DNA from: an uncultured Flavobacteriales bacterium | GTDB lineage: Bacteria; Bacteroidota; Bacteroidia; Flavobacteriales_G; Salibacteraceae | Direction of reading: 5' to 3' | DNA length: 64,000 nt | Assembly (NCBI GenBank): GCA_905479105.1 | Contig: CAJQLE010000003.1 | Span: 248,001 to 312,000 of the forward strand | In this document: piece after piece, positions 51,336-56,964 of the stretch | Position numbering within the stretch: the stretch's first letter is position 1 | How the letters are laid out: the number at the start of each line of letters is the position of its first letter | The notes under the pieces: generated by a model | The model's input: only the letters and a program-made list of their open reading frames with translations | Databases searched by the model: none | Told to the model about the DNA's origin: nothing | Program-made: the position numbers and the translations under genes

Positions 51336-53939
51336 TTAAACCACGATGTTGACTATTCTTCCGGGAACAACAATTACTTTCTTCGGAGAATTTCCATCAA
51401 GCCACTTAACCGCCACTTCATGACTCAAAGCAGCTTCTTCAATAGATGATTTATCCAAGCCGGCAGGCAGCTCAAGATGAAAACGCGTTTTACCATTGAA
51501 AGAAACAGGGTAATTCACAACATCAGACTTTAGGTATTCTTCATTCAATTCAGGCCACTCAGCTTCGGAGATAGAATGTTCATGTCCCAGTCGATTCCAC
51601 AATTCTTCTGCAATGTGAGGTGCGTGGCAACTTAAAAGAATTACGAGGTTTTCTAGAATTTCTCGTTTGTTGCATTTTAACTCAGTCAGTTCATTCACCG
51701 CTACCATAAAGGCACTTACAGAAGTATTGAAGGAGAACCTTTCCATGTCCTCAGTAACTTTTTGGATGCATTTATGCAGTGCTTTTAGCTCGTCTTTCGC
51801 AGGGGTTTCATCAGACACAACGAATTCATCTCCAACATGAAATAGGCGCCACAGTTTTCTCATGAATTTAGAGACGCCTTCAATGCCTTTTGTATTCCAA
51901 GGTTTATGCATTTCAATAGGGCCAAGAAACATTTCGTGCAAGCGCAAAGCATCTGCGCCATGCTCTAAAATGACATCATCTGGGTTGACTACATTTCCAT
52001 ATCGCTTACTCATTTTTTGACCATCCTCAGCTTGAATCATTCCTTGATTCACCAATTTCTTAGCAGGCTCGTCAAAAGGAATATATCCTAAGTCAAAAAG
52101 AAACTTGGTGATGAATCTGAAATACAATAAGTGGCCTGTAGCATGCTCTGCACCTCCCATATATAAATCCACCTGCTTCCAGTATTGAACAGCGTGTTTC
52201 GTAACGAATTCCTTCGACCTCTTTTCTGGATTACCTTCCATCATATAGCGCAGGTAATACCAATTTGAACCTGCCCATCCCGGCATAGTGTTCAAATCCA
52301 TTGCATATCCTTTGCCATTTTCAACTATTTTGCCTGCTTCACGGTCCCAATTCCATTGCGTTGCTCTACCCAATGGTGGTTCTCCTGTTTCAGTGGGCTT
52401 GAAGTTGTCAATCTCGGGTAGTTTTATTTCATCAAGCCTGTCCTCATCTATAGTATACGGTATGTCGTCTTTGTAGTAAATTGGAAAAGGCTCGCCCCAA
52501 TATCGTTGGCGACTGAAAACGGCATCACGCAATTTATAATTCACTTTTTTCTGGCCTATTTTCATGGACTCGAGCTTGGTGATAACCTCAATTTTCGCTT
52601 CTGTAACAGATTTACCATCAAGATAGTCGGAGTTAATCATCATACCATCTTTTCTGTCATCTGCACCTTGACTGATGTCTTGATTTTCAATTATCGGTAC
52701 GATCGGCAAGTCAAATTTTGTTGCGAAATCCCAATCTCTTTGATCACCCGCTGGAACAGCCATGATAGCTCCAGTGCCATAGTTGGCCAAGACATAATCA
52801 CTAATCCAAATAGGAACTTGCTGACCAGTAAGTGGGTTTTCAGCATATGCGCCTGTAAAAGCACCCGTGACATCCTTAACTTCAGTCATTCGTTCACGTT
52901 CCGATCGAGATTTTGCGAATTCTAAATATTTCTGAATTTCAGAGCTGCAATTGGTTGTGGTGATTTTGGATACTAGTTCATGTTCTGGTGCAAGAACCAT
53001 GAATGTAGCACCAAAAATTGTATCTGGACGAGTTGTGAATACTCGAAAGTTTTGGTCATGCTCCGCAACCTTAAATTCGATTTCGGCACCTTCACTTTTC
53101 CCAATCCAATTTCTTTGAATGTCTTTTAGAGAATCTGTCCATTCTATTGTTTCAAGTCCGTTAAGAAGACGCTGAGCAAAGGCTGTTATTCGCAATGACC
53201 ATTGCTTCATTTTTCTTTGCTCAACTGGGAATCCGCCTCTTTCGCTTACCCCATTCACAACCTCATCATTGGCTAAGACAGTGCCTAATTCTGGGCACCA
53301 ATTGACTGTTGTTTCAGCCCTGTAAGCTATTCTGTAGTTTAATAGAATTTCACGTTTCTTATTATCTGCAAATGACTTCCATTGTTCAGCTGAGAAGTTA
53401 AAGACATCATCACAAGCAGCATTTATGGTCTCATTACCGTTCTTTTCGAATTGCTCAATTAGAGTTTGAATGGGTCTTGCTTTTTCATTTGCCTGATCAT
53501 ACCAGCTATGAAATAATTGAATAAAAATCCATTGAGTCCATTTGTAGAAGTCTGGTGAAGAGGTATTTACCTCTCTGCTCCAATCAAATGAAAAACCAAT
53601 AAGGTCTAATTGTTCTCGATATCTCTTTATGTTGGCCTTTGTCGTTGCTGCAGGATGCTGACCGGTTTCAATAGCATATTGTTCTGCTGGAAGTCCAAAC
53701 GCGTCATAACCCATCGGGTGCAAGACATTGAAACCACAATGTCTCTTGTATCTAGCATAGATGTCACTGGCGATATAACCCAGTGGATGTCCAACATGAA
53801 GTCCAGAACCAGAAGGGTATGGGAACATGTCTAGGACATAGTATTTGGGTTTTGTTGTTTGAGTCTGTGCTTTGAACGTTTGGTTTTCAGACCAATGTGC
53901 GCGCCATTTCGATTCAATATCTGAGAAATCGTATTCCAT
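51336..53939 (-). CDS. leuS: Leucyl-tRNA synthetase
   Basis: 867 residues of class I LeuRS. HIGH motif as [17 protein letters not shown] near residue 45, CP1 editing domain ([20 protein letters not shown]), and KMSKR as [15 protein letters not shown] near 640. Charges tRNA-Leu. The insert between the HIGH region and the editing domain (about 155-215) is a Bacteroidota feature. A TAAATTCG box at 53957-53964 on this strand may be a weak -7 element. Confidence 0.96.
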
Positions 53940-54056
53940 TGCTAAAAAATGATCCGCGAATTTAGCGTTAGTGAATCTTTATTCGTCTTAATCCGTATAG
54001 TATTCCTTAAAGTTTTTTTTAAATGCATTTTTTTGATAAAAACCTGATAATTAACA

Positions 54057-55751
54057 ATGAAAGTCTCCAATAGAATCAGAACGAATGCTATGAGTGTTAT
54101 CTTAGCCAACCTTTATTTTTCAGGTGGGTTTTGGTCACTAATGCGGGAATACGTTTTTATGGAGAGGTTTCGTCACTTGGAATTTTGAGAAATAATGACA
54201 AATACTTTGATATACAGGAATTTTAAGCCCTTAGCAGCTGATGCTGATGGAGATGGAATTTCTGATGCATTTGATCCAGATGCTGGAGGAACATATTTGA
54301 CTCCGGTGAATACTGATGGCACTGGTAATCCGGATTATTTAGACTTAGATTCTGATGATGATGGAGAATCAGACCTTATTGAAGGTTGGGATACAGATGG
54401 TGATGGTGTTGCGAATACAACGGCAGCCGGTGCAGATGCAGATGGAGACGGCTTAGATGATAATTTCGATCAGTTTGTCGGACCTTACGGAATTGCTAAT
54501 GCTTCAAATAATAATCAAGATGCTCTTGACTTTCCTGATACAGATGGAGGCACCGTTGAGAGAGATTGGCGAGATGAGCCTTGCATCGGAGGAGTAGTAA
54601 TATTGTCGCCTTCAAATACTACAATCGTGATTTCTTCGACTTGTGAAAATGATCCTTGGACTTACTATTATGATCCAGCGAATCCAAAGCAGCTTTTATT
54701 TGCGATTGAACATACTCCTGCAGATGCAAATACGAATCCATTCACTGTTCAGGCCTCTTTGCCGGCCTAGGCCTCTTTGCCGGCCTCGATTAATCCTTCT
54801 ACAGAAGCTGGTTTATACAGTGCAATTGATTTAGGAAATCAAGATGCGACATTTGTCCTTGGGCGTTATTGGAATTTGAACATAACCAGTGGTAGTTTAA
54901 ATGGTAATGTTAATATTCGATTCTTCTATGACAGTCAGGAGTCGGACACACTAGAGGCTGCAGCCATTCGCTGGAATCAGCAAAATGCGGGAAATACCGG
55001 TAATGTCTCTGGCTTGAGATGGTTTGCAGTAAATTCAGGAACCTTTGATCCAGCTAGTCCTGATCTTCAAGCTTTGGGTGTCTCTAATTCTTCTCAACTT
55101 TTCCCAACCAACCAAGGGCTTCAAGATGGCGTTGATTTTGTTGAATTTTCTACCAATATATTAACGGGTGGCGGGCTTGGTTATACAATAGGCACTAACT
55201 CAGTAATCTTACCAGTTGAATTATTAATGTTTGAGGCTATTCCAACGAGCGATCGTCAAGTAAATCTGACTTGGGTTACAGCTTCTGAGGTGAATAACGA
55301 TCTTTTTGAGGTTCAAAGAAGTTCCGATTTAGCAAATTGGGAAACGATTGAAAAAGTTATTGCTAAGGGTAATTCATCTGAAGAGCAATACTATTTTACT
55401 ACAGACCTCTTTCCATTACTTGGTCGTTCTTACTGCAGATTAGAACAATTGGATTTTGATGGAACTTTAGATATTAGCGAGGTAAGGGATATTTATTTGT
55501 CTTCAAATGAAAGCGGAGATATTAAGTTCACTGTATACCCAAATCCTTCAAACAACCTCATTCACTTGTATGTCGCTTCAGATGTTGATTGTACGTTCGA
55601 AATTCGAAATGCTATGGGTCAAATAGTTAGAGAAGTTCAAACTCGAGGCAGCGAAACCACAATTATAAGTGGACTTGGGTCAGGTGTTTATTTTTTAACG
55701 TGCCTAAATAGTGCGATTAACGAATCATTCAAAATCGTTATTACAAAGTAA
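54057..55751 (+). pseudogene. Broken T9SS cargo gene with thrombospondin-3-like repeats
   Basis: All pieces lie in one frame. From ATG at 54057 a 43-codon start ends at TGA (54186). After an ATG at 54195 comes an Asp/Gly-rich region of calcium-binding type 3 repeats (DADGDGISDAFDPD, DTDGDGVANTTAAG) to TAG at 54768. The frame then runs on to 55751 through NLTWVTASEVNNDLFEVQRS and a C-terminal type A sorting domain (FTVYPNPSNNLIHLYV ... GVYFLTCLN). The TAG lies in the first copy of an 18-base tandem duplication. There is no signal peptide in frame; 54128-54226 in another frame (NAGIRFYGEVSSLGIL) looks more cargo-like and may be the real N-terminal part after a frameshift. Intact relatives are large surface proteins. 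Confidence 0.8.
54753..54788. repeat. 18-base tandem duplication creating a stop codon
   Basis: Copy one GCCTCTTTGCCGGCCTAG (54753-54770) is followed at once by GCCTCTTTGCCGGCCTCG (54771-54788). They differ at one base, and the difference turns TCG (Ser) into TAG (stop) in the first copy. Confidence 0.95.
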
Positions 55752-55897: not shown

Positions 55898-56197
55898 ATG
55901 ATAATTTACAACGTCACCGTTAAGGTTGATAATGATGTTCACGATGAGTGGATGGAGTGGATGAGATCAATTCATATTCCTGAGGTTATGGCAACTCAAA
56001 AGTTTATCGATCATCAGGTAGCTAAAGTTTTAGTGGATGATACGGATGGCATCACGTATTCTTTTCAATATAAATGCCAAAGCATGGATAAGTTGGAAGA
56101 GTATTATGCAGACCATGCTCCAGCTCTTCAACGCGATCATGCCAAAAAGTATAAGGACAAGTTTGTTGCTTTCAGAACATTATTAGAAGTTATCTAA
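55898..56197 (+). CDS. DUF4286-family small protein
   Basis: 99 residues, cytoplasmic, beginning MIIYNVTVKVDNDVHDEWMEW with TQKFIDHQV and the late KDKFVAFRTLLEVI. This matches the DUF4286 family, ferredoxin-like in shape, function unknown. It is coupled to rsmA by a one-base overlap (TAATG), the usual Bacteroidota pairing, which suggests a link with ribosome maturation but does not prove it. Confidence 0.85.
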   Translation: MIIYNVTVKVDNDVHDEWMEWMRSIHIPEVMATQKFIDHQVAKVLVDDTDGITYSFQYKCQSMDKLEEYYADHAPALQRDHAKKYKDKFVAFRTLLEVI

Positions 56198-56964
56198 TGA
56201 GATCTCCAGTTCGAGCAAAAAAGCATCTTGGCCAGCATTTTCTGAGAGATGAGAATGTAGCATTGAAAATTGTTGATGCGCTGGCACCACTTTCTTTTGA
56301 TTCACTGATAGAAGTTGGAGCAGGGGATGGAGTGCTCTCCAAACATCTGGTTGAGCGATATAGGAAGCTTGAACTTTTTGATGTTGATCAAGAGTCTATC
56401 GATTATTTGAAACGCACCTATCCCATGCACGTGGATAAAATTAAGCTTCAGGATTTTTTGCAGTGGGATATCAAAGACGAGATAGCTGTTATTGGTAATT
56501 TTCCATACAATATTTCAAGTCAAATTGTTTTTAAGATCATCGAGAATAAGTACAACGTTGTGGGTATGGTTGGCATGTTTCAAAAGGAAGTAGCCGCAAG
56601 AATTGCCTCAAAAAAAGGAAGCCGAGTTTATGGAATAATTAGTGTCTTGACTCAAGCCTACTATGATGTGGAATATCTATTTACGGTTGATGCTCAAGCG
56701 TTTGAGCCACCACCTAAAGTGCAGTCAGGAGTCATTATCTTGAAACGCAAGGAAAAATTGAAATTGGATTGCGATGAAATCGCCTTCAAGTCAATCGTCA
56801 AACGGTCTTTTAATCAAAGAAGAAAAATGCTGAGAAAGTCTTTGAAGGACTTGATAAACGAGGAGAACAGTAAGCTTATTGATCGATATTTAACGATGCG
56901 ACCTGAGCAATTAGATTATACTGAATTTGTTGAGCTCACAAACGCTTTAGCACCGCTTAAATAA
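56197..56964 (+). CDS. rsmA: 16S rRNA dimethyladenosine transferase RsmA (KsgA)
   Basis: 255 residues. KKHLGQHFLRDENVA and the SAM-binding EVGAGDGVLSKHL, then GNFPYNIS, the family's N-x-P-Y catalytic motif. It dimethylates two adjacent adenosines near the 3' end of 16S rRNA during small-subunit assembly. Second gene of the DUF4286-rsmA pair; mgtE follows after 30 bases. Confidence 0.96.
   Translation: MRSPVRAKKHLGQHFLRDENVALKIVDALAPLSFDSLIEVGAGDGVLSKHLVERYRKLELFDVDQESIDYLKRTYPMHVDKIKLQDFLQWDIKDEIAVIGNFPYNISSQIVFKIIENKYNVVGMVGMFQKEVAARIASKKGSRVYGIISVLTQAYYDVEYLFTVDAQAFEPPPKVQSGVIILKRKEKLKLDCDEIAFKSIVKRSFNQRRKMLRKSLKDLINEENSKLIDRYLTMRPEQLDYTEFVELTNALAPLK

Follow-up and report, generated by a model that had tools for sequence, protein, structure and literature searches.

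Why does a T9SS cargo gene lying between leuS and rsmA carry a stop codon inside an otherwise open frame, and can such a gene be restored? The question arises from a 64-kb window (the whole stretch of DNA analysed here, 64,000 nucleotides). Descent from a T9SS cargo gene, as claimed in the original prediction, was supported by profile searches. Read through the stop, the frame encodes 518 residues, of which residues 447-516 form a Por_Secre_tail domain scoring over both cut-offs (PF18962, E 2.3e-8; TIGR04183, E 3.9e-11), like the C-terminal sorting domain of T9SS type A cargo; a TIGR04183 search of the genome placed the domain at the same spot. T9SS substrates carry a Sec signal peptide together with the C-terminal domain, as described in a published account (PMC12618676). 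Unlike type A cargo, the window copy is missing its signal peptide and the greater part of its body, and a stop interrupts its frame between the start and the sorting domain. Its N-terminus is not hydrophobic by eye; a signal peptide is visible by eye in the relatives G007, G005, G006, G008, G010 and G011. As judged on SprA, the window genome has the secretion machinery (TIGR04189 over the cut-off, in an open frame of 2,463 codons). Compared with the intact ortholog of G007 at the same leuS-rsmA place, the window frame is interrupted, and the TAG together with the missing 5' part leaves the cargo gene dead, in agreement with the prediction.

At E 0.01, no Pfam domain besides the sorting domain was found in the intact G007 protein or in the 962-aa piece of G008, and AlphaFold gave only a weak model for the last 498 residues of the G007 protein (mean pLDDT 59, pTM 0.40). 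The remnant matched 12 places elsewhere in its own genome, by its C-terminal part only, and none of these matches revealed a second gene copy. The 324-aa downstream piece, used alone as a query against the named genomes, found no relative. In an alignment-based search, the only close relatives among the best 80 of 163 were K_MB250, SI074_bin77 and UBA6057 (49-89% across the greater part of the query); the rest of these 80 were 24-31% identical over most of the length or covered the query partially.

The in-frame TAG was indeed born in an 18-base tandem duplication. Two exact 18-bp units span positions 54751-54786 (TRF match 100%), and period-18 identity covers exactly 36 bases and no further. 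The TAG straddles the unit junction; therefore, the stop arises without any base change. The single-base difference between the copies (TCG to TAG) that had been held responsible was a matter of reading the repeat in another register, as the units are identical. Apart from this TAG, the frame is open from 54195 to 55751, as originally described. The duplication is the sole exact adjacent copy with units of 12-199 bp in a scan of the 64 kb, and the unit occurs there twice at up to 3 mismatches; two such matches were obtained in 0 of 100 shuffles. Protein alignment showed a single unit at the site in all six aligned relatives (G003, G007, G009, G001, G005 and G008), with DNA alignment at the site covering G003 and G007. 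The second unit is thus derived in the window lineage.

Three other accounts of this site were considered and set aside. The 18-mer does not represent a repeat family: allowing up to 2 mismatches, the whole genome has, besides the duplication site, a single further occurrence, at 2 mismatches. The hairpin that each unit can form is weak (fold z -1.7, matched by 14 of 200 shuffles), which leaves a special DNA structure unsupported. Reassignment of TAG was judged unlikely from stop usage, since 7 of the 44 stop-to-stop window frames of at least 200 aa end in TAG, 32 in TAA and 5 in TGA; TAG looks like an ordinary stop here.

The 5' end of the remnant proved different from its first description, in which the locus was given from 54057 and its 5' part seemed shifted. 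The ATG at 54057 opens a 43-codon frame that stops at 54188 and lies outside the gene, which starts at 54195. The 12 residues from 54195 score 35 by BLOSUM62 against the gene start in the sister genome G011, MENLITYRDLKP, with 6 of 12 residues identical by eye; the next-best score against the G011 start was 24, among 1,525 stop-free ATG-started 12-mers from both strands of the window. The tblastn alignment with the G007 protein opens at window position 54225, corresponding to G007 residue 1396, and the leuS-rsmA interval is 2,257 bp in the window vs 6,307 bp in G003, 6,317 bp in G007 and 6,313 bp in G009. From alignment and interval length, the copy has lost, in frame and behind codon 12, the signal peptide and some 1,380 codons. 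The 5' anomaly is therefore a large sequence loss rather than a shift of frame. As a whole, the remnant shares 73% identity with G003 and 60% with G007 (Table 1).

In the leuS-proximal intergenic stretch, at positions 53944-54130, identity to G011 is about 79% and to G003 73%, higher than in the gene body (65-70%). Either a promoter or a short frame ahead of the gene may lie here.

Table 1. Features of the cargo remnant and its neighbours, in window coordinates.
Feature	Position	Strand	Basis
leuS (presumed; named from its sequence), left neighbour	51336..53939	-	Stop-free single frame in 13/13 genus genomes
Kept start and first 12 ancestral codons, MTNTLIYRNFKP	54195..54230	+	BLOSUM62 vs G011 start
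Junction (approximate) of the loss of signal peptide and ~1,380 codons, frame kept	54225..54237	+	tblastn, interval lengths
Upstream piece: D/G-rich (DADGDG-type) repeats and following region, to the stop	54228..54767	+	Open frame
First unit of 18-bp duplication	54751..54768	+	TRF, period scan
In-frame TAG at unit junction	54768..54770	+	Sequence, frame
Second unit of 18-bp duplication	54769..54786	+	TRF, period scan; aligned relatives (n=6) with single unit
Downstream piece, open to its own stop	54771..55751	+	Open frame
Por_Secre_tail T9SS type A C-terminal sorting domain	55533..55742	+	Pfam PF18962, TIGR04183
Small protein, presumably of DUF4286-type family, right neighbour	55898..56197	+	Open frame; like frame at rsmA-proximal interval ends
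rsmA (ksgA)-like gene (presumed; named from its sequence), right flank	56197..56964	+	12/13 genus genomes, no internal stop

We located the same interval in the 13 genomes of the genus via leuS and rsmA-like orthologues, counting a trace of the gene when it lay in the interval or on contigs ending there. The giant cargo gene left a trace in 12 of the 13 genomes and is broken in 10 of these 12. The intact homologue that the original prediction had proposed to look for was found within the genus: the gene is intact in G007 (1,898 aa) and in G008, where it is read across two contigs that overlap exactly by 55 bases and has a signal peptide and a 962-aa frame. The intact relatives seem to have a signal peptide; their body is a long series of D/G-rich repeats, and they share the C-terminal end. 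The broken copies carry diverse lesions. The window genome (G000) combines the missing signal peptide and codons with the TAG from the duplication. In G009, a G-run after residue ~83 carries a one-base change and no other lesion was seen; G003 has lost the signal peptide and has a G-run frameshift; and G005, from two contigs taken as one gene, has nonsense codons and a G-run frameshift. Further lesions are 5' loss and nonsense (G001), a large internal loss with a frameshift (G011), several frame changes (G004), a frameshift (G006), nonsense with the middle replaced and the C-terminal end inverted (G010), and absence of the N-terminal part with nonsense (G012). No trace was found in G002 in the 2,125 bases before leuS, where its 6.9-kb contig has a different gene beside leuS. 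Compared by eye, no lesion was identical between two genomes, but G000 and G003 could owe the loss of their signal peptides to a single event.

Flanking and control genes gave a different picture. leuS is unbroken in 13 of 13 genomes and the rsmA-like gene in all 12 in which it was found. Three control T9SS cargo genes of 1,263, 781 and 713 aa are unbroken in 13/13, 8/8 and 4/4 genomes with a match, that is, 0 breaks in 25 cases, a comparison biased by their having been picked as intact in the window genome. The difference from the giant cargo gene (10/12 vs 0/25 broken) has a Fisher p of 1.9e-7, or 1.4e-6 without G000 (9/11 vs 0/22). In these counts, the 1,263-aa control is cut short in G012, where it lacks residues 1-112 because the 3,881-base contig ends there, and an extra partial copy of the 781-aa control in G011 was left out. 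Two further cargo genes of the window genome, both broken, also served as controls: one has relatives in G012 (broken) and G004 (two open copies), and the other only a 27% match in a single genome.

We consider it highly probable that the remnant is a recent pseudogene of a giant T9SS-secreted surface protein and one case of recurrent loss at the leuS-rsmA locus. On this account, the signal peptide and the bulk of the N-terminal body of an ancestral giant cargo, of the size seen in G007, were removed with the frame kept, and the 18-bp duplication made the TAG, before or after that removal. The downstream piece is without an export signal; hence, even if translated, it is not expected at the T9SS. 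Across the genus, the same gene would have been broken repeatedly and recently through slippage in repeats and G-runs, nonsense mutations, deletions and inversion. The duplication, the TAG, the missing 5' part, the broken copies and the coding constraint are observed; as a last step, we infer that loss was tolerated or favoured, with the protein being dispensable or sometimes costly.

Several measures bear on when the breaks occurred. Between intact G007 and its broken sister G009, dN/dS is 0.042 over 1,814 codons, next to 0.037 for leuS. As synonymous sites are saturated in most pairs, no ratio is given for those; for G000-G003, differences at codon positions 1/2/3 are 0.238/0.160/0.569 in the gene and 0.165/0.073/0.549 in leuS. 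Because these codon-position patterns show constraint, the breaks look recent. Private first- and second-position changes on the G000 vs the G003 branch number 98 v 71 (outgroup G007), 95 v 60, 74 v 63 and 88 v 63, and outgroup G008 reverses the order (64 v 71); the five outgroups are not independent, and the excess on the G000 branch is weak. On the leuS tree, several forks of which are weakly supported, the intact genomes are nested among the broken ones. If losses cannot be reversed, the tree as drawn requires a minimum of five, and the distinct lesions suggest more.

Decay was also seen in other cargo genes. Among the 105 sorting-domain matches listed for the window genome, with 34 of 184 first-look candidates unscored, four have a stop inside and eight lie in a frame shorter than 200 aa (one near a contig end), although these short frames may be real small proteins. 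The union is nine broken-looking loci, or 10 with the window gene. Two adjacent paralogous small T9SS cargo genes on the - strand, L175:1887-3534 (G000:C2, ~160.4-162.0 kb), are both broken; the G012 relative of this family has stops and two G004 copies are open. The two broken genes used as controls argue neither for nor against a special status of the leuS locus. As about 10 of 105 sorting-domain loci look broken and a second small family is broken in G000 and G012, cargo decay is partly a genus-wide habit, with the leuS locus the clearest syntenic case seen.

The alternative that survives best shares the pseudogene reading and differs only in the last step inferred above. Under a neutral, clade-wide relaxation, the protein would be unneeded and each lineage would lose the gene without selection for loss. 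This would fit the different lesions at 10 of 12 loci, the higher count of changes at codon positions 1 and 2 that G000 shows relative to G003 with four of the five outgroups, and the decay of other cargo genes. However, the dN/dS of G007-G009 and the third-position bias in other pairs point to constraint until recently, two intact genes have been kept, and G008 as outgroup gives the opposite result. We give neutral relaxation about an even chance. Less probable is that the giant cargo is a surface protein repeatedly selected for loss, for example as a phage receptor or costly adhesin, with functional alleles persisting and most sampled lineages bearing a fresh, independent knock-out. Recurrent loss is described in a study of the FadL/OmpP1 surface protein of Haemophilus influenzae (PMC6156194), whose gene, as in the genus here, is inactivated independently in several lineages; those losses occurred in patients and their effect was measured, whereas the losses here lie between species and any benefit is putative.

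Could the duplication and other lesions be consensus errors of metagenome assembly? The named relative records are MAGs and G-run lesions occur in three genomes; such errors could explain the one-base lesions there (G009, G003 and G005). Many of the lesions, though, do not look like homopolymer errors: there are large deletions, nonsense codons and one inversion. The same assemblies show unbroken leuS (13/13), rsmA-like (12/12) and chosen cargo genes (25/25). As an explanation of the whole pattern, artefact is very unlikely.

The original prediction further suggested that the duplication is a slippage hotspot and that loss of one copy could revert the gene. In slipped-strand contingency genes, repeat number switches expression; here, correspondingly, the 18-bp duplication would expand and contract by slippage and turn the cargo on and off. 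The resemblance consists in a short direct repeat within a surface-protein gene and in G-run lesions in three relatives. Exact 18-bp repeats can slip, and the units can form a weak hairpin. Each of the three G-runs of at least 6 inside the gene (in G003, G005 and G009) coincides with a frameshift, as slippage predicts; neither the C-run of G009 nor the T-run of G004 does. Unlike contingency genes, however, the locus has two copies only, no variation was seen (one genome per species), and other, irreversible lesions are present. No array occupies the site in the six relatives aligned, and several relatives have two or more lesions each. A phase-variable gene is otherwise intact; the window copy is not, and with the signal peptide and those codons absent, copy number alone gives no secreted protein. 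Practical reversibility is thus unsupported, and we regard a reversible switch as highly improbable. Slippage contributes to breakage, but because large deletions, nonsense codons and inversion also occur, a simple on-off switch is unlikely. Continued use of the 518-residue frame, as a functional truncated protein or by stop-codon readthrough, is scarcely credible in spite of the open rest of the frame and the retained sorting domain, given that no signal peptide is visible, TAG terminates other frames here, and the first possible restart listed (TTG 54777) has no evident export signal.

A lone pseudogene would be ordinary; the recurrent breakage of one syntenic surface-protein locus, in which coding constraint points to a working gene until recently, is moderately interesting. 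Were selection behind the pattern, the locus would mark a surface molecule in contact with phages, grazers or particles. Annotation of such assemblies will list the stumps as short cargo genes. No report of the leuS-rsmA cargo locus was found in the listed titles and abstract openings on T9SS pseudogenes, parallel pseudogenization (adhesins included), phage resistance and gliding, Flavobacteriales phase variation or stop codons from tandem duplications, and no paper was found linking thrombospondin type 3 with T9SS.

Two further observations concern neighbouring and control genes. A 623- to 637-codon membrane/TPR-like gene, named by eye, lies beside leuS in five genomes (L079 in G010, L044 in G004, L041 in G006, L045 in G012 and L080 in G002) and is inverted in G010; the leuS-side interval of G004 and G006 also contains a methyltransferase-like gene, likewise named by eye. 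The leuS-side interval is perhaps a local insertion hotspot. The 713-aa cargo gene (G000:C3:17121-19259; L089:3122-5260, - strand) has matches in only 4 of the 13 genomes and is 91% identical between G000 and G012, with LeuS at 74%; from these identities it looks horizontally transferred.
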